Part shown: one piece after another, positions 36,801 to 45,565 of the stretch | Layout of the letters: the number at the start of each line of letters is the position of its first letter | Numbering within the stretch: position 1 is the first letter of the stretch | Origin: Sphingomicrobium sp. XHP0239 | GTDB lineage: Bacteria; Pseudomonadota; Alphaproteobacteria; Sphingomonadales; Sphingomonadaceae | Reading direction: 5' to 3' | DNA length: 64,000 nt | NCBI RefSeq assembly: GCF_039555325.1 | Contig: NZ_CP154608.1 | Coordinates: forward strand, 1,922,001 to 1,986,000 | Notes under the pieces: model-generated | Database searches by the model: none | The model's input: the letters and a program-made list of their open reading frames with translations, nothing else | What the model was told of the DNA's origin: nothing | Translations under genes and position numbers: made by a program

Positions 36801-36876
36801 GCCCAGGTAGCTCAGTTGGTAGAGCATGCGACTGAAAATCGCAGTGTCGGCAGTTCGAACCTGTCCCTGGGCACCA
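36801..36876 (+). tRNA. tRNA-Phe (anticodon GAA)
   Basis: A 76-nt cloverleaf: acceptor GCCCAGG/CCTGGGC, D arm with AGCTCAGTTGGTAGAGC, anticodon stem TGCGA/TCGCA with loop CTGAAAA (anticodon GAA), T arm with AGTTCGAAC, and encoded CCA. A tRNA-Phe after yacG is a common alphaproteobacterial arrangement. Confidence 0.97.
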
Positions 36877-36953
36877 TCTCCCCCCACTTCCGACCACGCG
36901 CGAGCCCGGTCTCCATCCGCGATGGGACGGGAACAAGTCGGCTCGCCGGGCCC

Positions 36954-38369
36954 TTGAGCCTTATCTTGCGCTTCCTGTTCCTCTTTCTCCTGATCGTCCT
37001 CGCCCCGGTGGCGGGGTCGAACGCCGCGATCCCCCTCCCGCTGCCGGGTGGCGAGGCGGAGACCGAAGGGGCGAGCGATGCCGCGCCCACGCCCCAGATC
37101 ATCGAGGATACGCAGAGCGACGGCGAGGACGACCGCATCGCGGCGCGCATCGGCGACATCTTCGCCGAAATCCCGGCCTTCCGTTCGGTCGATGTCGTCG
37201 TCGACGGCGGTGTCGTCACCTTGTCGGGAAGCGTCGCGGACGCCGAAGACATCGACCGCGCGGAGACGATCGCCGGGCGTGTCGCGGGCGTCGTCACGGT
37301 CGAGAACGATCTGGAACGCGACCTTTCGCTGGATACCGGCCTCACCGGTCTGGCCAGCATCGGCGAGCGGATCGACGGTCTGGTCGCGGTTCTGCCGCTT
37401 CTCGCGCTGGCCATCGCCATTGCCGCCGCCGTCATGGTCGTCGGCTATCTGATCGCGGGCCTCGGCGGCTTGTGGCGGCGCATCCTTCCCAACGCCTTCC
37501 TCGCAGAACTGGTCGCCAGCGCGGTGCGCTTCGCGTCCGTGGTCATCGGCATCGTCATCGCGCTCGACATGCTGGGGGCGGCGGCGTTGCTGGGCGCGGT
37601 ACTGGGCGGTGCGGGAATCATCGGCATCGCCCTCGGCTTCGCGATGCGCGACACGGTCGAGAATTACGTGGCCTCGCTGATGCTGTCGCTGCGCCAGCCG
37701 TTCCGTGCGAACGATCATGTGATCATCGACGACAAGGAAGGGCGGATCATCCGTCTGACGAGCCGCGCGACCATCATCATGACGCTGGACGGCAACCACC
37801 TGCGGATCCCCAACGGACAGGTCTTCAAGGCGACCATCCTCAACTTCACCACCAACCCCCATCGCCGCTTCGAGTTCGAACTCGGGATCGACGCCGACGA
37901 CGATCCCAACGCCGCTCGCCGGCTGGGGCGCAAGACGCTCGGCGCGCTGCCCTTCGTCCTCGATGACCCCGCGCCCGAGGCACGGACCGAAGCGGTCGGC
38001 GACAGCAACATCGTCATCAAGTTCCTCGGCTGGGTGGACCAGCGCGAGGTCGACTGGTTCAAGGCGCGCAGCCTCGCCATCGCCAACGTCAAGGCAGCGC
38101 TCGAGGATGCGGGCTTCGGGCTTCCCGAACCCATCTACCGGCTGCGCTTCGACCCGCGGACCACCGCGCTTCCGTTCGAGAATATCGGCGAAAGCGACGG
38201 GCGCAGCGGCAGGAACCCCGCATCGCGTGCGACCGCCCGGCCGGTCGATCCCGATCATGTCGACGAGGATATCCGCCCCGCCGACGAAGTGGCGCAGATG
38301 GTCGAAGCCGAACGCGCCGCCGAACCCGACGAAAAGGATCTGCTCGATTCGAACCGCCCGGTCGAATGA
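36954..38369 (+). CDS. Mechanosensitive channel (MscS family) with BON domain
   Basis: The 471-residue protein has an N-terminal signal-type helix, a BON domain (about residues 55-120, VDVVVDGGVVTLSGSVADAEDI), three membrane helices, and the MscS pore and beta domain with GIIGIALGFAMRDTVENY and LTSRATIIMTLDGNHLRIPN. It should act as an osmotic safety valve in the inner membrane; the BON domain may bind lipid or periplasmic partners. The frame extends back into the tRNA gene, so the real start must lie after it: TTG at 36954 (or 36966) begins the signal helix, and no in-frame ATG is available. The C-terminus is acidic. Confidence 0.87.
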   Translation: MSLILRFLFLFLLIVLAPVAGSNAAIPLPLPGGEAETEGASDAAPTPQIIEDTQSDGEDDRIAARIGDIFAEIPAFRSVDVVVDGGVVTLSGSVADAEDIDRAETIAGRVAGVVTVENDLERDLSLDTGLTGLASIGERIDGLVAVLPLLALAIAIAAAVMVVGYLIAGLGGLWRRILPNAFLAELVASAVRFASVVIGIVIALDMLGAAALLGAVLGGAGIIGIALGFAMRDTVENYVASLMLSLRQPFRANDHVIIDDKEGRIIRLTSRATIIMTLDGNHLRIPNGQVFKATILNFTTNPHRRFEFELGIDADDDPNAARRLGRKTLGALPFVLDDPAPEARTEAVGDSNIVIKFLGWVDQREVDWFKARSLAIANVKAALEDAGFGLPEPIYRLRFDPRTTALPFENIGESDGRSGRNPASRATARPVDPDHVDEDIRPADEVAQMVEAERAAEPDEKDLLDSNRPVE

Positions 38370-38401
38370 CCGGCCGCGGCGATCGATAGGTCCGAGGCTG
38401 G

Positions 38402-39805
38402 CTAGGTGGTCGGCGTCCTGCCTACCCGCTCGCGCGCCGCGGCAATCTGGCGTCGCACCTCGTCGGGGGCGGTGCCGCCGAAACAGGTTCGGCTGCCTGC
38501 CGATCGTTCCAGCGACAGCATCGCGCGCGCTTCGTCGTCGAGCCGCGCATCGACGCCCCGCAACGCCTCGCCGTCCAGCGCGTCGAGATTGACGCCCTGC
38601 GCATCCGCCGCCGCGACGGCCCGCCCGACGATATGATGCGCCTCGCGGAACGGCACGTCCTTCTCGCGCACGAGCCAGTCGGCAAGGTCGGTGGCGGTGG
38701 CATGACCGCTCCCCGCCACCGCGCGCATCCGGTCGGGCACGAAGGTCAGCGTCTCGATCATCCCCGCCATCGCGCGGAGCGACACCGTCAGAAGGTCGCG
38801 CACCTCGATCACCGGCGGCTTGTCGTTCTGCATGTCCTTGGCATAGGCGAGCGGCAGTCCCTTCAGCATCGCCCCCAGCCCCGTCAGCGCGCCGAGGATG
38901 CGTCCGGCATGGGCGCGCACGAGTTCGGCGGCGTCGGGATTGCGTTTCTGCGGCATGATCGAACTGCCGGTCGACCAGGCATCGGGCAGTTTCACGAACC
39001 CGAAGGGCTGGCTCGCCCAGATCACGATCTCCTCGGCCAGCCGCGACAGGTGCAGCGAACAGGCGCTGGCAGCCGCCAGATAGTCGAACGCGAAGTCGCG
39101 ATCGCTGACCGCGTCGATCGAATTGCGTGTCGGCCCGTCGAAGCCCAATGCGCTCGCCGTCGCTGCCCGGTCGATCGGAAAGCTCGTCCCCGCCAGCGCT
39201 GCCGATCCCAACGGACACAAATTCATCCGCGTCGCCGCATCGGCGAACCGCGACCGGTCGCGCTCCGCCATTTCGACATAGGCCATCAGGTGGTGGCCGA
39301 GCGTCACCGGTTGCCCCGACTGCAGATGCGTGAAGCCCGGCATGATCGTGTCGGCATGGTCCTCGGCCCGGTCGAGAAGCGCATGCTGGAACGCTGCCAA
39401 CAAGGCATCCGCCTCTGCGCACGCCTCGCGCACGTAGAGCTTGAAATCGGTTGCCACCTGGTCGTTGCGCGAACGGGCGGTGTGCAGCCGTCCCGCATCC
39501 TCGCCGATCAGTTCGGCCAGCCGCGCCTCGACGTGCATGTGGATGTCCTCGAGCGCCGCATTCTCCGGCACCCCCTCCGCCTCATATTCGGCTGCGATCG
39601 TATCGAGACCCGCAGCGATCCGCTCCGCCGCCCCGCCGTCCACGATCCCCTGCGCCGCCAGCATCGCGACATGCGCCTTGCTCGCCGCGATGTCCTGCCG
39701 CCACAGATGCTTGTCGAAGGGAATGGACGCGTTGATCGCCTCCATCACTTCATCGGGGCCGCCCGCGAAACGCCCGCCCCACATCGTGTTGCCCGACTTC
39801 GCCAT
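38402..39805 (-). CDS. argH: Argininosuccinate lyase
   Basis: ArgH splits argininosuccinate into arginine and fumarate, the last step of the pathway. The 467-residue protein starts with [19 protein letters not shown], includes [13 protein letters not shown] and the fumarase-superfamily signature [12 protein letters not shown] (about residue 280). Length is normal. It is the last gene of the argCJBFRGH operon; its ATG overlaps the argG stop by one base (TGATG). Confidence 0.97.
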
Positions 39806-41031
39806 CAGCCCATCTTCTCCCGCTGCCGCGCGAGCGTCCGGAGCCGCAGCGCGCGCAACTTGATGAAGCCTTCCGCGTCCTTCTGGTCATAATCGCTCGT
39901 GCCTTCCTCGAAGGTCACGAGCTGTTCGTCGTAGAGCGAATAGGGACTGCTGCGCCCGATCACGGTCGCATTGCCCTTGTAGAGCTTGACCGTCACCTCG
40001 CCCGTCACCGGTCCCTGGCTGGCATCGACCGCCGCCTGCAACATCTCGCGCTCGGGCGAAAACCAGAAGCCGTCATAGACCAGCTGGGCATAGCGCGGCA
40101 TCAATTCGTCCTTCAGATGCATCGCGCCCGCGTCCAATGTGATGCTCTCCATCCCCCGCCGCGCGGCCAGCAGAACGGTGCCGCCGGGCGTCTCGTAGAT
40201 TCCACGCGACTTCATCCCGACCTGCCGGTTCTCCACGAGGTCGAGCCGCCCGATGCCGTTCGCGCCGCCGAGGTCGTTCAACTTCGCGAGCAACGTGGCG
40301 GGGCTCATCTTCTCGCCGTCGATCGACACCGGATCGCCCCGTTCGAAACCGATGCGGATGACGCTCGCTTTGTCGGGCGCATCCTCGGGCGACACGGTGC
40401 GCTGGTGTACATGCTCGGGCGCCTCGACGTCGGGATCCTCGAGCACGCGGCCCTCGCTGCTCGAATGCAGCAGGTTGGCGTCGATGGAGAAAGGCGCTTC
40501 CGATCGCTTGTCCTTGGCGATCGGGATCTGGTTCGCCTCGGCAAACGCCAGCAGATCGCCGCGCGACTTGAACTCCCAGTCGCGCCACGGGGCGATGACC
40601 TTGATGTCGGGCTTCAACGCATAATAGGCCAGCTCGAACCGCACCTGATCGTTGCCCTTGCCGGTCGCGCCGTGACAGACCGCGTCCGCGCCGACCTGCT
40701 CGGCGATGTCGACCTGCCACTTGGAAATCAGCGGCCGCGCGATCGATGTGCCGAGGAGGTATTGCCCTTCGTAAAGCGCGTTGGCGCGGAACATCGGGAA
40801 GACATAGTCGCGCACGAATTCCTCGCGCAGGTCCTCGATGAAGATATTGTCGGCCTTGATCCCGAGCAGTTCGGCCTTGCGCCGCGCTTCTTCGACCTCG
40901 CCCCCCTGGCCGAGATCGGCGGTGAAGGTGACGACTTCGGCGTCATAGTTCGTCTGCAGCCATTTCAGCATGATCGACGTGTCGAGCCCGCCCGAATAGG
41001 CGAGAACGATTTTCCGGGGCGATGAGGTCAC
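39805..41031 (-). CDS. argG: Argininosuccinate synthase
   Basis: ArgG joins citrulline and aspartate using ATP. The 408-residue protein begins with the pyrophosphatase-type P-loop AYSGGLDTS (residues 11-19), then [13 protein letters not shown] and the [22 protein letters not shown] region. It starts with GTG at 41031, overlapping the argR stop as GTGA; the length then matches the family. The next gene argH overlaps by one base. Confidence 0.97.
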
Positions 41032-41489
41032 TTGGTCTTGTCCTTGGTCAGCATGTTGGCGAGCGCGGTGGGGCTGTGCCGGTCGCGCACGGCGATGAAG
41101 AGGGTGTCGTCGCCCGCGATGGTGCCGGCGACTTCGGGAAGGTCGGCGGCGTCGATTGCCGCGCCGACGATATGGGCCGAACCGGGTCTCGATCGGACCA
41201 CGACCATGAAACCCGTGGCCTCGGCCTGCACCACCCATTCGGCCACGATCCGGTCGAGCTCTTCGCTGCGGGCGTCGAGCTGGCCCAGCTGGTCGGGCAA
41301 GAGATAGACGGTGCGCCCCTCGCGGCGGCCCTTGACCGCGCCGATCGCGTCGAGGTCGCGGCTGACGGTTGCCTGCGTGGTCGGATGCCCCGCATCGGAA
41401 AGTGCCGCGACCAGATCCTCCTGGCTGGACGCGTCGCCCTGTCGCAGCATCCGCGCGAGCGCGTGGCGCCGGTCCTCGATCCGGGTCAT
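41028..41489 (-). CDS. argR: Arginine repressor ArgR
   Basis: ArgR is an arginine-sensing hexamer that binds ARG boxes and represses arginine synthesis genes. The 153-residue protein has a winged helix domain with [18 protein letters not shown] (about residues 36-53) and a C-terminal arginine-binding and oligomerisation domain ending in [19 protein letters not shown] and [15 protein letters not shown]. The GTIAGDDT motif is the core of the family's Arg site. Sequence feel ([15 protein letters not shown], PGSAH, TIAGDDT) is closer to actinobacterial ArgR than to that of enterics. It lies inside the operon it should control, so it is probably autoregulated. ATGA and GTGA overlaps on both sides. 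Confidence 0.94.
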
Positions 41490-42358
41490 GGCCTCACCCC
41501 CAAGAGCCAGGCCAGCGCGCCGCGTACACTGTGCAGCCGGTTGGCCGCCTGCTGCCACACCGCACTCTTCGGCCCGTCGATGACCTCGGCCGTGACCTCT
41601 TGGCCGCGAATGGCGGGAAGGCAGTGGAGAAAACGGGCCTTAGGCTTCGCCTCGGCCATCAGGCGCTCGTCGACGCGAAAAGCGCCGAATGCCTGGCGCC
41701 GCGTTTCGCCCTCGTCGTCCTGGCCCATCGACACCCAGACGTCGGTGTAGATCACGTCCGCTCCCGCCACGGCCTCGGTCGGATCGCCGGTCACCGACAC
41801 ACCGGGGAGGTCGGCCGTCGCGGGCTCGAAACCGTAGCCCTCCGGCGCCGCGAGAACGAACGTCGCGCCCAGCTTCGACGCGCCGACCGCAAGACTGCGC
41901 GACACGTTGTTGCCGTCGCCGACGAAGGCGATCTTCCGCCCCTCGATCGACCCGAACAGCTGCTCGACGGTCAAAAGGTCCGCCAGCCCCTGCAACGGGT
42001 GCGCCAGATCGGACAGCATGTTGACGACGGGCGTGTCGGGCACCGCGTCGCGAAACGTCTCGAGGACATCGTGATCCTTCACCCGCGCGGCGATCATCGC
42101 GTGATAGCAGGCCAGCGTTCGCGCGACGTCTTCGGCGCTTTCGCGGCCGCCAACGCCGACCTCGTCGGCACGTACGGTGACCGGGTGCCCGCCGAGCGCC
42201 ACCACCGCCATCTCCATCGAATGGCGTGTCCGCGTACTCGGTTTCTCGAACAGGAGCGCGACGCCCTTGCCCGCCAGCGGTCGAGGCAACTCGTCCTTCT
42301 GCGCCAGCGCGATCATGCCACGGATCGTGTCCGCTTCCAGTTCGGCGAGCGTCAGCAC
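41486..42358 (-). CDS. argF: Ornithine carbamoyltransferase
   Basis: ArgF makes citrulline from ornithine and carbamoyl phosphate. The 290-residue protein has the carbamoyl-phosphate motif STRTR (41-45), HPLQ (120-123), the ornithine-loop DVWVSMGQ and HCLPA (245-249). It is about 15 residues shorter at the N-terminus than most members. The start is GTG at 42358 with AAGGAG seven bases upstream, which overlaps the argB end by seven bases, so the short N-terminus looks real. Confidence 0.95.
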
Positions 42359-43248
42359 GGTACATTCTCCTTGATGATCATGGTCCCGATCCCCTCGTCG
42401 GTCAGCATTTCGATAAGCAGGCTGTGCGCGATCCGCCCGTCGAGGATGTGCGCGCGCGGCACCCCCGCCTCGACCGCGCCGATGCAGGCGGTCAGCTTCG
42501 GGATCATTCCCGCGCCGACCGCGCCGCCGTCGATCATCGCCGCCGCCTCTGCTGCGGTCAGCCGCGGGATCAGGCTGGCGGCATCCCCCGCATCTGCCAG
42601 CAGGCCCGGCGCGGCGGTCAGATAGACGATCTTCTCCGCCCCGACCGCCGCCGCGATCGCGCAGGCGGCGGCGTCGGCATTGATGTTGTAGGGCTGGCCC
42701 GCCCGATCGGCGCCCACGGTCGAGACCACCGGGACGAGCCCCTCGTCGAGCAGACGGGTGAGGACCGACGCGCGCACTTCCTCGACGTCGCCGACGAACC
42801 CCAGCTTCGGATCGCGCTGGCGCGCCACCAGCAGCCCGCCGTCCTCGCCCGACACGCCGACCGCGACCGGATCGTCCCCCGCCTCGACGTTGAACTTGGA
42901 CACGAGGTCGCGATTGACCTTGCCGACCAACGTCATCCGCACCGCCGCGAGCGTCGGGGCGTCGGTGACCCGCAAGCCATCCTCGAAGCGCCGTTCGATC
43001 CCGAACGCGCCCAGCGTCTCGTCGATCTGCGGCCCGCCGCCATGCACGACGATGCAGCGCACGCCGACCTGCCGCAGCAGCAGCACGTCCTGCGCCAACG
43101 CGCGGTCGACCTCCTCCTCGATGGCGTTACCGCCGAGCTTTACGACGATGGTCCGCCCCGCGAACCCGCGCACGTACGGCAGCGCCTGCACCAGCACCTG
43201 CGCGGTGTCGGCGGGGGTCAGCCCGTGATGGCGAGTGGCACCCGTCAC
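42352..43248 (-). CDS. argB: Acetylglutamate kinase
   Basis: ArgB phosphorylates N-acetylglutamate, usually the arginine-inhibited step. The 298-residue protein has [39 protein letters not shown] and GGMIPK-type sequence ([12 protein letters not shown]). The ending [26 protein letters not shown] recalls actinobacterial homologues. Length suits the arginine-sensitive class. GTG start at 43248 overlaps the argJ stop as GTGA. Confidence 0.96.
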
Positions 43249-44405
43249 GACGTCACCACGTTTTCCTTGATATATCCCGGGCCCAGATCGATCCCGATCG
43301 CGTTCGCCAACCCGTCGCCCGCGCCGAGGTCGATCGCGATCGTGACCTCGGCGTCCTGCATGTGGGTGCGCACCGCCTCGGCATCGTGCGCCACTTCGAC
43401 CCCGCCCCTCGCGACCGTGACCCCGCCATAGGAAACCGCGGATTTCTCGACGTCCATCTCGACGCCGCAGCTGCCCGCCGCCGCGAGAATGCGACCCCAA
43501 TAGGGATCTGACCCGTGCCAGCTGCACTTGACCAGATTGTTCTCGGCAATGGCCTTGGCGCACTGCCGCGCCGCCGCCTCGTCCGCCGCACCGCGCACCG
43601 ACAGATGGACGATCTTCGTCACGCCTTCCGCATCGCGTGCCATCATCAGCGTCAACTGGTGGCAAAGGCTCGCCAGCGCCGACCGGAACTCGTCCTTGTC
43701 GACGGCGCCCGCCCGCCCATTGGCGAGCATCAGCACGGTGTCGTTGGTCGACGTCGCGCCATCGACGTTGAGCGAGTTGAAGCTCCCCGCCACCGCTTCG
43801 CGCAGCATCGCGGTCATCTCGTCGGGCTCCAGCGCCGCGTCGGTGGTCAGGAAGGCCAGCATCGTCGCCATGTTGGGCGCGATCATTCCCGAACCCTTCG
43901 CCATCCCGCCCAGCGTGAAGTTCGATCCCTTCACGACCATTTCCTTGGGCACATGGTCGGTCGTCATGATCGCGGTCGCGGCCTTCAGGTGGGTGTGGGT
44001 CGACAGGTTCTGCGAAAGCGTCGCGATCCCCGGCAGAACCTTTTCCATCGGCAGCGCGAAGCCGATCGGCCCCGTCGAACAGACCAGCACATGCTCGTCC
44101 GCCACGCCCAGCGCCTTGGCCGTTGCCTCCGTCATCGTTTTGGCATCGTCCATGCCCGGCGCGCCCGTGCCCGCATTGGCGTTCCCCGAATTGACGACGA
44201 TCGCGCTCGCGCGCCCTCCCGATGCCGCGAGCTGCGCCTTGGTATGCACGACCGGCGGGGCGATGAACTTGTTCTGCGTGAACACGCCCGCCGCGGCGAC
44301 CGGCTGTCCGTCGTCGGTGGCAACGATGGCGAGGTCGCGGCGGCGCATCTTGATGCCCGTCGCCATTCCGCCCGCGACGAAGCCCGGGGCCGCGGTCACG
44401 CTCAT
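43245..44405 (-). CDS. argJ: Bifunctional glutamate N-acetyltransferase / ornithine acetyltransferase
   Basis: ArgJ recycles the acetyl group from acetylornithine onto glutamate; bifunctional forms also use acetyl-CoA. The 386-residue precursor has the self-cleavage site GATSTNDT, where Thr218 becomes the nucleophile and splits the chain into two subunits, and the family's SGNANAGTG and [17 protein letters not shown]. With argJ present an argE deacetylase is not needed. It is ATGA-coupled to argC and GTGA-coupled to argB. Confidence 0.96.
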
Positions 44406-45415
44406 GGATGCACTCCCGCCGTCGACAGGCCCGCCGTCTCGTCGAGCCCCAGCATGATGTTGGCGCACTGGATCATCTGTCCCGCCGCTCCCTTTCCAAG
44501 ATTGTCGATCACGCCCAGCGCCAGGATCCGGCCCGTCCGCTCGCACCGCCGTGCCGTCATGTGCACCGCATTGGTGCCGAGGACTGCCTTGGTCGCCGGC
44601 GGCGCGGAGGCAACGTGCACGAACGGCTCGTCGGCATAGGCATTGCGCATCGCCTCCAGCGGATCGCCATCCCCGGCCGCCTCGGCGGTGCAGGTGACGA
44701 GGATGCCGCGGTCGATCGGGACGAGGTGCGGGGTGAAGAGGAGGGACTGCCCCAGCGCCTGCTCCATCTCGCCGGTATGGCGATGGGTCAGCAGACCATA
44801 GGCCGACAGCGATCCGTGGACGCTGTTGAAATGGGTCGTTTCGCTCGGCGCCTTGCCTGCGCCCGACACGCCCGACATGCCGTTGACCGCGATGCTTCCC
44901 GGCGCGATCAGCCCCGCCTCCACCAGCGGCTTCAGAGTCAGGATCGCTGCCGTGGCATAGCAGCCCGCCGCCGCCACCGCCGTCGCCGATCCGATCGCTT
45001 CCCGGTGCAGTTCGGGGATTCCGGTGACGAACCGGTCGAGCAGGTCGGGCGCCTGGTGCGCCTCGCCGTACCAGCGTGCATACTCATCGGCCGCGGACAG
45101 CCGGAAATCGGCACCCAGGTCCACGAACGGCACCCCCGCATCGAGGATCGTGGCCGCCAGCTCCTGGCTCTTCCCGTGCGGCAGCGCCGCTAAGACGAGG
45201 TCCGCCTCGTTCAGCAGCGATGCGTCCCAATCGACGATCGATGCGTCCGGAAAGGCGAGCGCGAGGTTGGGGTGCACCTCGGCAACGGCTTTCCCCGCGT
45301 CGGACGCCCCCACCAGCGGTCCGGCCACGAGCGACGGATGCGCGTCGATGAGCCGCAAAAGCTCCCGCCCCACGAATCCACTCGCACCCAATATTGTACA
45401 CTTTATGCGTTTCAT
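44402..45415 (-). CDS. argC: N-acetyl-gamma-glutamyl-phosphate reductase
   Basis: ArgC reduces acetylglutamyl phosphate to the semialdehyde with NADPH. The 337-residue protein starts with [17 protein letters not shown] (Rossmann motif) and has the catalytic Cys152 in AAGCYATAA. Length and layout suit the long (type 1) class. It is the first gene of the argCJBFRGH operon; a near-perfect ARG box lies 10 bp before its ATG, and the region up to 45565 is shared with a divergent lipoprotein gene. Confidence 0.96.
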
Positions 45416-45424
45416 CCGTGCCCA

Positions 45425-45442
45425 TATGCATTTTTATGCATC
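45425..45442. promoter_or_regulatory. ARG box (ArgR operator) in front of argC
   Basis: TATGCATTTTTATGCATC matches the ArgR consensus TNTGNATWWWWATNCANA at every specified position but the last. It lies 10 bp upstream of the argC ATG on the minus strand. TATGCA recurs at 45435 and 45444, so three copies sit 9-10 bp apart, one turn of DNA. A left-half-only match occurs 3 bp on the argC side (45404-45421), spanning the start codon. Confidence 0.8.
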
Positions 45443-45565
45443 ATATGCAAGCGATGTTCGTTCGGGGATCGCCGAAAGCTGCACACCGCTGTCACCACCA
45501 CCGACCCGGCGGAACCAGCGGGTCGGCTGCCGCGCTTTCCCTCCGACCGCGAAGGAGAAACGCCC

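Follow-up and report, generated by a model that had tools for sequence, protein, structure and literature searches.

Previous work has described control of arginine biosynthesis by the repressor ArgR in several settings. In actinobacteria, among them Acidimicrobiia and Mycobacterium, a single argR sits inside an argCJBDFRGH operon with an ARG box at the argC promoter; one study describes actinomycete ARG boxes of 20 bp that occur as a contiguous pair, an example at S. coelicolor argG being CTTTGCATGGTCATGCGTAA, and a role for the ArgR arginine-binding motif in corynebacteria (PMC5839063). Gammaproteobacterial ArgR regulons have the repressor family and principle in common with the locus described below, and according to a survey of 196 proteobacterial genomes ArgR is conserved in Gammaproteobacteria and missing from the other classes (PMC5343134). 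Native sphingomonad arg genes are scattered, apart from an argD-argF pair.

Here, we describe an ArgR-bearing arginine operon of seven genes in the alphaproteobacterium Sphingomicrobium sp. XHP0239, located in a 64-kb stretch (the window, bases 1922001–1986000) of its one-contig genome of 2,421,308 bases (G000). In contrast to the survey, ArgR and its operator are present here in one alphaproteobacterial family. We consider it likely that an Acidimicrobiia-like, self-regulated argCJBFR operon entered sphingomonads, replaced native genes, and later gained an alphaproteobacterial argG and the native argH.

The genes run argC-J-B-F-R-G-H on the minus strand with successive overlaps of 4, 4, 7, 4, 4 and 1 bases, as an earlier sequence-only reading of the window had stated. 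ArgC, ArgJ, ArgB, ArgF, ArgG and ArgH each exceed the cut-off of their own NCBIfam equivalog model. ArgR, the only match to this protein in the genome, scores 122 bits against TIGR01529 (argR_whole), under the cut-off of 130.45, and passes both Pfam domains (PF01316, DNA-binding, 54.7 bits, cut-off 27; PF02863, C-terminal, 73.7 bits, cut-off 25); by these scores we assign it to the Pfam ArgR family and not to TIGR01529. Its translation contains the arginine-binding motif GTIAGDDT. The description of the block as the actinobacterial order with argD removed also holds: argB directly overlaps argF, and argD lies elsewhere, at G000:C1:559317-560459.

ArgR is rare in these bacteria, in agreement with the earlier claim that most Alphaproteobacteria lack it. 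PF01316 was found above cut-off in 11 of 249 genomes sampled from the family and 8 of 385 from the class, G000 being counted in both. Ten of the 249 carry the block (G000, G145, G197, G238, G053, G129, G186, G229, G044 and, on a short contig, G124), so that the block is not general in the group. A scan of a genome collection added four sphingomonad-type loci (L040, L041, L042, L044). The earlier claim of scattered arg genes also holds where it could be read off one contig: in the ArgR-less genome G015, argC, J, B, F, G and H each have their best match at a different site, six in all.

Five of the seven proteins group with actinobacterial relatives. We searched each window protein against 37 genomes, a set without G124. 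Identity to the window in eight block relatives was 57–68% for ArgJ, 58–66% for ArgC and 56–72% for ArgB, and 58–64% for ArgF in the five relatives with a block argF; the best matches in 12 ArgR-less family genomes reached 37–42% (ArgJ), 33–44% (ArgC, covering part of the protein in 10 of the 12), 44–48% (ArgB) and 40–45% (ArgF). The window's own genome gave one match each for ArgJ, ArgC and ArgB, and its second ArgF match (30%) resembles the weak second match of most genomes. Each tree recovered a single sphingomonad block clade (ArgR 97/97, 14 rows; ArgJ 100/99, 13; ArgC 100/100, 13; ArgB 100/100, 13; ArgF 100/99, 10), and all five clades fall among or beside Acidimicrobiia (Actinomycetota), a grouping repeated with SH-aLRT 100 in a joined C+J+B+F tree of 41 rows made by a quick method. 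Approximately unbiased (AU) tests, in which several groups were defined only once the trees were in view, rejected a single clade of block and native alphaproteobacterial proteins for ArgJ (1.3e-4), ArgF (1.3e-9) and ArgC (0.0017, or 0.024 using type-1 ArgC alone). The trees include 39 of the 76 non-sphingomonad loci of the ArgR scan, hand-picked for spread, with rows of too little query coverage removed by script. The ArgR tree holds five rows from nine divergent alphaproteobacterial loci, among which L016 and L036 are one gene with identical rows; the four loci L013, L015, L017 and L018 yielded no match and so have no row in it.

Of the 80 top-ranked ArgR loci in the collection scan, 73 have actinobacterial titles and 4 sphingomonad or alphaproteobacterial ones; the taxon names of putative donors are record titles, many of them of metagenome-assembled genomes, as is the sphingomonad label of L040, L041 and L044. 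The best solved-structure match of the window ArgR is 3ere, the M. tuberculosis protein. The window ArgR differs from the gammaproteobacterial type in its model scores, 118 bits with NF002880, the actinobacterial ArgR model, and a lower 72.5 bits with NF003457 (ArgR/PRK05066). In a separate protein search, all 11 organism-naming rows among the matches listed are alphaproteobacterial, mostly Allosphingosinicella or Sphingomonas, and this type of ArgR is therefore well spread in that group.

ArgG and ArgH have a different history. ArgG falls with Alphaproteobacteria, and the AU test rejects a grouping with its actinobacterial counterparts (p-AU 3.5e-5); ArgH clusters with proteins of the window's genus (100/95). 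Identity to the window is 67–86% for ArgG in 22 other family genomes searched, with the maximum in G077, and 63–74% for ArgH in the family genomes searched. The actinobacterial kinship proposed by the sequence-only reading is thus upheld for ArgC, ArgJ, ArgB, ArgF and ArgR and fails for ArgG and ArgH. Neither result that this reading had named as refuting it was obtained, with five of the seven trees placing the proteins with Acidimicrobiia and the block occurring in 10 of 249 family genomes. In the ArgG tree the window, G077, G229, G186, L040, L041 and L042 share a clade (100/99), to which G252, a member of another family, attaches (100/96); this group is separate from the family's other ArgG, which include three members of the window's genus. 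This suggests another source within Alphaproteobacteria for the linked argG.

The relatives form a graded series. Among the 14 sphingomonad loci, four are C-J-B-R, ten have argF and six have argG behind argR, and argH lies directly behind argG in the window only. In L040 and L042 argH is 0.6–1.6 kb behind argG on the opposite strand; argH is far from the block in G229 and G186, and argG and argH both are in G145, G197, G238, G053, G129 and G044. From this series we infer the order in which the genes joined. It also bears on the proposal of the sequence-only reading that the seven genes arrived as one block from an actinobacterium. The gene order would fit such an event, and Acidimicrobiia loci do carry argG and argH behind argR, but the ArgG and ArgH trees contradict it, as do the relatives in which these genes lie far from the block, and we regard whole-block acquisition as scarcely credible.

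The native argF has left a scar beside argD. It is missing there in all six block-argF genomes tested (G000, G053, G229, G129, G044, G186) and is present there in the three genomes whose block is without argF (G145, G238, G197) and in five of five ArgR-less genomes (G001, G003, G005, G009, G015); G124 is outside this comparison. The gene that follows argD in the six gapped genomes is hslO-like. In G229 and G186, 0.8–1.2 kb separate argD from the hslO-like gene (L305 2631–3414, L316 2631–3855), and no argF remnant was matched in that gap. G077 and G040 likewise have no argF beside argD; G040 has an argF elsewhere.

G077, which the rpoB tree places as sister to the window (100/100), has probably lost argCJBFR. 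A search of its genome gave no match to ArgC, ArgJ, ArgB or ArgR and only a weak 30% match to ArgF, and it retains argD, adjoining argG-argH and the argF gap. A tRNA-Phe gene stands beside the argG-argH pair in G077 and one gene away from the operon in the window, and neighbours from 30.2–36.6 kb of the window occur near argG-argH of G077 in a different arrangement (window 36801–45415, L300 7102–16083).

The block also moved within the family, since the block trees conflict with the rpoB tree. In the latter the window's genus groups with genus g54 (100/99), and G044 and G124 are placed elsewhere. The block trees pair the window with G044 and not with its own genus (ArgJ 100/98, ArgC 99/95, ArgB 98/98), the ArgR tree joins it with G044 and G124 (98/96), and in the ArgF tree it lies outside the other nine sphingomonad rows. 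A same-genus grouping (window, three genus members and L044) is rejected for ArgJ (AU 0.013), ArgC (0.015) and ArgB (0.019) and not for ArgR (0.063). None of the window's flanking reading frames had a match next to the block at any of the 12 other loci compared. The pairing of the window with G044 counts against an ArgR operon ancestral to the family, vertically inherited and lost by most members. Such descent would agree with the rpoB tree insofar as a single nine-member clade (100/99) takes in eight of the ten sampled block genomes and, as its ninth member, G077, which shows signs of loss; we nevertheless judge it quite improbable, given that the AU tests for ArgJ, ArgC and ArgF rule against grouping with alphaproteobacterial proteins, the argF scar shows a native gene replaced, and ArgR is above cut-off in so few genomes of the class.

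The earlier expectation that the block kept its own repressor and operator is borne out by an ARG box at argC with conserved geometry. In the window this operator comprises three half-sites (Table 1) and is the sole site scoring at least 11/12 in the 64 kb; its position and letters are common to 12 other sphingomonad loci and to actinobacterial argC promoters, and it is in keeping with the actinomycete two-box layout. The consensus TTGCATN4ATGCAA is matched upstream of argC at 10 or more of 12 positions in 13/13 sphingomonads, a score of 10 being reached by 0.15% of mononucleotide shuffles; the sequence of L029 begins within argB, which makes 13 and not 14 the total for operator counts. Of the 56 other loci, 52 match it at 9 or more positions, as do 3.4% of shuffles. 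Sites scoring at least 11 all precede argC in the window and 12 loci; L023, L028 and L030 have no site of that score. An in-frame start codon lies exactly 35 nt after the box start in 12/13 sphingomonads, 18/39 loci of Acidimicrobiia, mycobacteria and allies, and 0/17 Streptomyces; six alternative distances gave 0–3/13 and 0–5/39 in the first two groups. The window's box start was set by hand at TTGCAT, the best-scoring box lying 9 nt further on, and the count excluding the window is 11/12.

The same letters appear to form the promoter. TTGCAT lies 17 bp (16 in the window) ahead of a CAT at −10 in 13/13 sphingomonads; in the other 39 loci the −10 is mostly T-A-T (27, 33 and 29 at the three positions). 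Seven nucleotides separate the predicted −10 from the argC ATG, and the promoter is probably leaderless. On balance we lean towards the view that an entire regulatory circuit (leaderless promoter, three-half-site operator and repressor) crossed phyla together with the operon and has retained its exact geometry with the RNA polymerase of another phylum; that relatives record its growth (CJBR, CJBFR, CJBFR-G, CJBFR-G-H) and its loss (G077); and that in the new host the −10 went from the TAT type to CATAnn, completing a third ArgR half-site over the −10.

A genome-wide ArgR regulon was considered and rejected. Exact TGCATN4ATGCA sites number 0–4 in nine block genomes, 5 in G040 and 0–3 in six ArgR-less genomes; by these counts only the argC promoter stands out, unlike in the gammaproteobacterial regulon. 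The second exact site of G000 is letter-identical to sites in the ArgR-less G009 and G015. The first ARG box of the window has a spacer of 3 nt rather than 4 (45436–45450), and within the sphingomonad clade the window's ArgR evolves fastest (end branch 2.03 in the ArgR tree); repressor and operator may drift together here.

Several observations weigh against an Acidimicrobiia-like origin of the block as we describe it. AU tests do not reject ArgB with native alphaproteobacterial ArgB (0.18), nor ArgR, a short protein, with five divergent, long-branched alphaproteobacterial rows (0.22); by themselves the ArgB and ArgR trees do not exclude alphaproteobacterial kinship. Nor is a family clade rejected for the linked ArgG (0.28), leaving its foreign origin within Alphaproteobacteria undecided. 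The sphingomonad clade stands on a long stem (0.54, joined tree) without a near donor, and the best ArgR match outside it, among the best 80 loci, has 48% identity. The enzyme trees consist of Alphaproteobacteria and ArgR-scan loci, so that donors from other phyla are hardly covered, and the best solved structures for ArgF, 1a1s and 1pvv, are archaeal and not actinobacterial. An exact TGCATN4ATGCA precedes argC in only 6 of nine block genomes, with inexact boxes in the remaining three. Codon use, which the sequence-only reading had proposed as a check of the block against its flanks, gives no transfer signal (GC3 0.83–0.91 in the seven arg genes, 0.82–0.86 in three neighbouring reading frames).

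Some of these points would suit a donor from an unsampled lineage of another phylum, or a reverse transfer from sphingomonads to Acidimicrobiia, since the stem is long and the exact place among Acidimicrobiia is open. Some Acidimicrobiia also hold alphaproteobacterial-like proteins (ArgJ of L067 and L094; ArgG of L052, L053, L067, L072, L074, L080, L088 and L094), and because of this arginine genes seem to have crossed both ways. We still think another donor or direction unlikely: the nearest ArgR loci are mostly actinobacterial by title, the operator geometry is common to mycobacteria and Acidimicrobiia, and the Acidimicrobiia operon is larger, with room for argD between argB and argF, the sphingomonads forming one clade.

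Under the preferred Acidimicrobiia-like origin, argCJBFR with its promoter and ARG-box operator would have passed from an Acidimicrobiia-like actinobacterium into sphingomonads, taken the place of the native argC, J, B and F, which were scattered, and been transferred again among sphingomonads. Next, argR would have gained an alphaproteobacterial argG downstream, and the window's lineage would have added its native argH after argG to complete the seven genes seen today, with argD remaining at its native place. Operation would be as in actinobacteria, with leaderless transcription from or next to the argC start codon; arginine-loaded ArgR would cover the half-sites from −35 to −10 and shut off all seven genes, argR included. 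The result resembles the actinobacterial operon in order, in its single internal argR and in an often identical box-to-start distance, and differs from it in the missing argD, the alphaproteobacterial argG and argH and the CATAnn −10. It resembles the native sphingomonad genes in argD and in an argH of the family's kind, and differs from them in its replaced argC, J, B and F, its added ArgR and the gathering of the genes into one operon.

Table 1. Features of the arginine locus, in window positions
Feature	Position	Strand	Description
argC	44402–45415	-	N-acetyl-gamma-glutamyl-phosphate reductase (type 1); Acidimicrobiia-like
argJ	43245–44405	-	ornithine/glutamate N-acetyltransferase; Acidimicrobiia-like
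argB	42352–43248	-	acetylglutamate kinase; Acidimicrobiia-like in tree, AU test not decisive
argF	41486–42358	-	ornithine carbamoyltransferase; Acidimicrobiia-like, substitutes for native argF
argR	41028–41489	-	arginine repressor; actinobacterial-like
argG	39805–41031	-	argininosuccinate synthase; alphaproteobacterial
argH	38402–39805	-	argininosuccinate lyase; of the family's own kind
tRNA-Phe	36801–36876	+	near the arg operon; context only
ARG-box operator, three half-sites	TTGCAT 45445–45450, ATGCAT 45436–45441, ATGCAT 45426–45431	-	read from sequence; conserved across loci
Predicted promoter	-35 TTGCAT 45445–45450, 16-bp spacer, -10 CATATG 45423–45428	-	inferred from spacing

Outside these subjects, G040, the eleventh ArgR-bearing genome of the family, has divergent argB, argC and argR (35–37% identity to the window proteins); its contig 23 (L032) carries them as a separate argB-argC-argR set with an exact ARG-box-like site, TGCATTTTAATGCA, directly upstream of argR. 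Seven class genomes outside the window's family (L013–L019) have a divergent ArgR above the Pfam cut-off, mostly without recognisable arg enzymes nearby, as judged by comparison with the window proteins.

Among the papers listed in searches of an open-access library, which lacks most subscription journals, we found no report of this transfer. A core amino-acid pathway replaced by a foreign operon that brought its repressor and operator offers a clean test case for the spread of operons and their control between phyla. In this family the order of the steps is readable and testable, thanks to the graded relatives, the argF scar and a secondary loss that is likely in G077, and the locus would illustrate the replacement of a native pathway by a foreign, self-regulated one.

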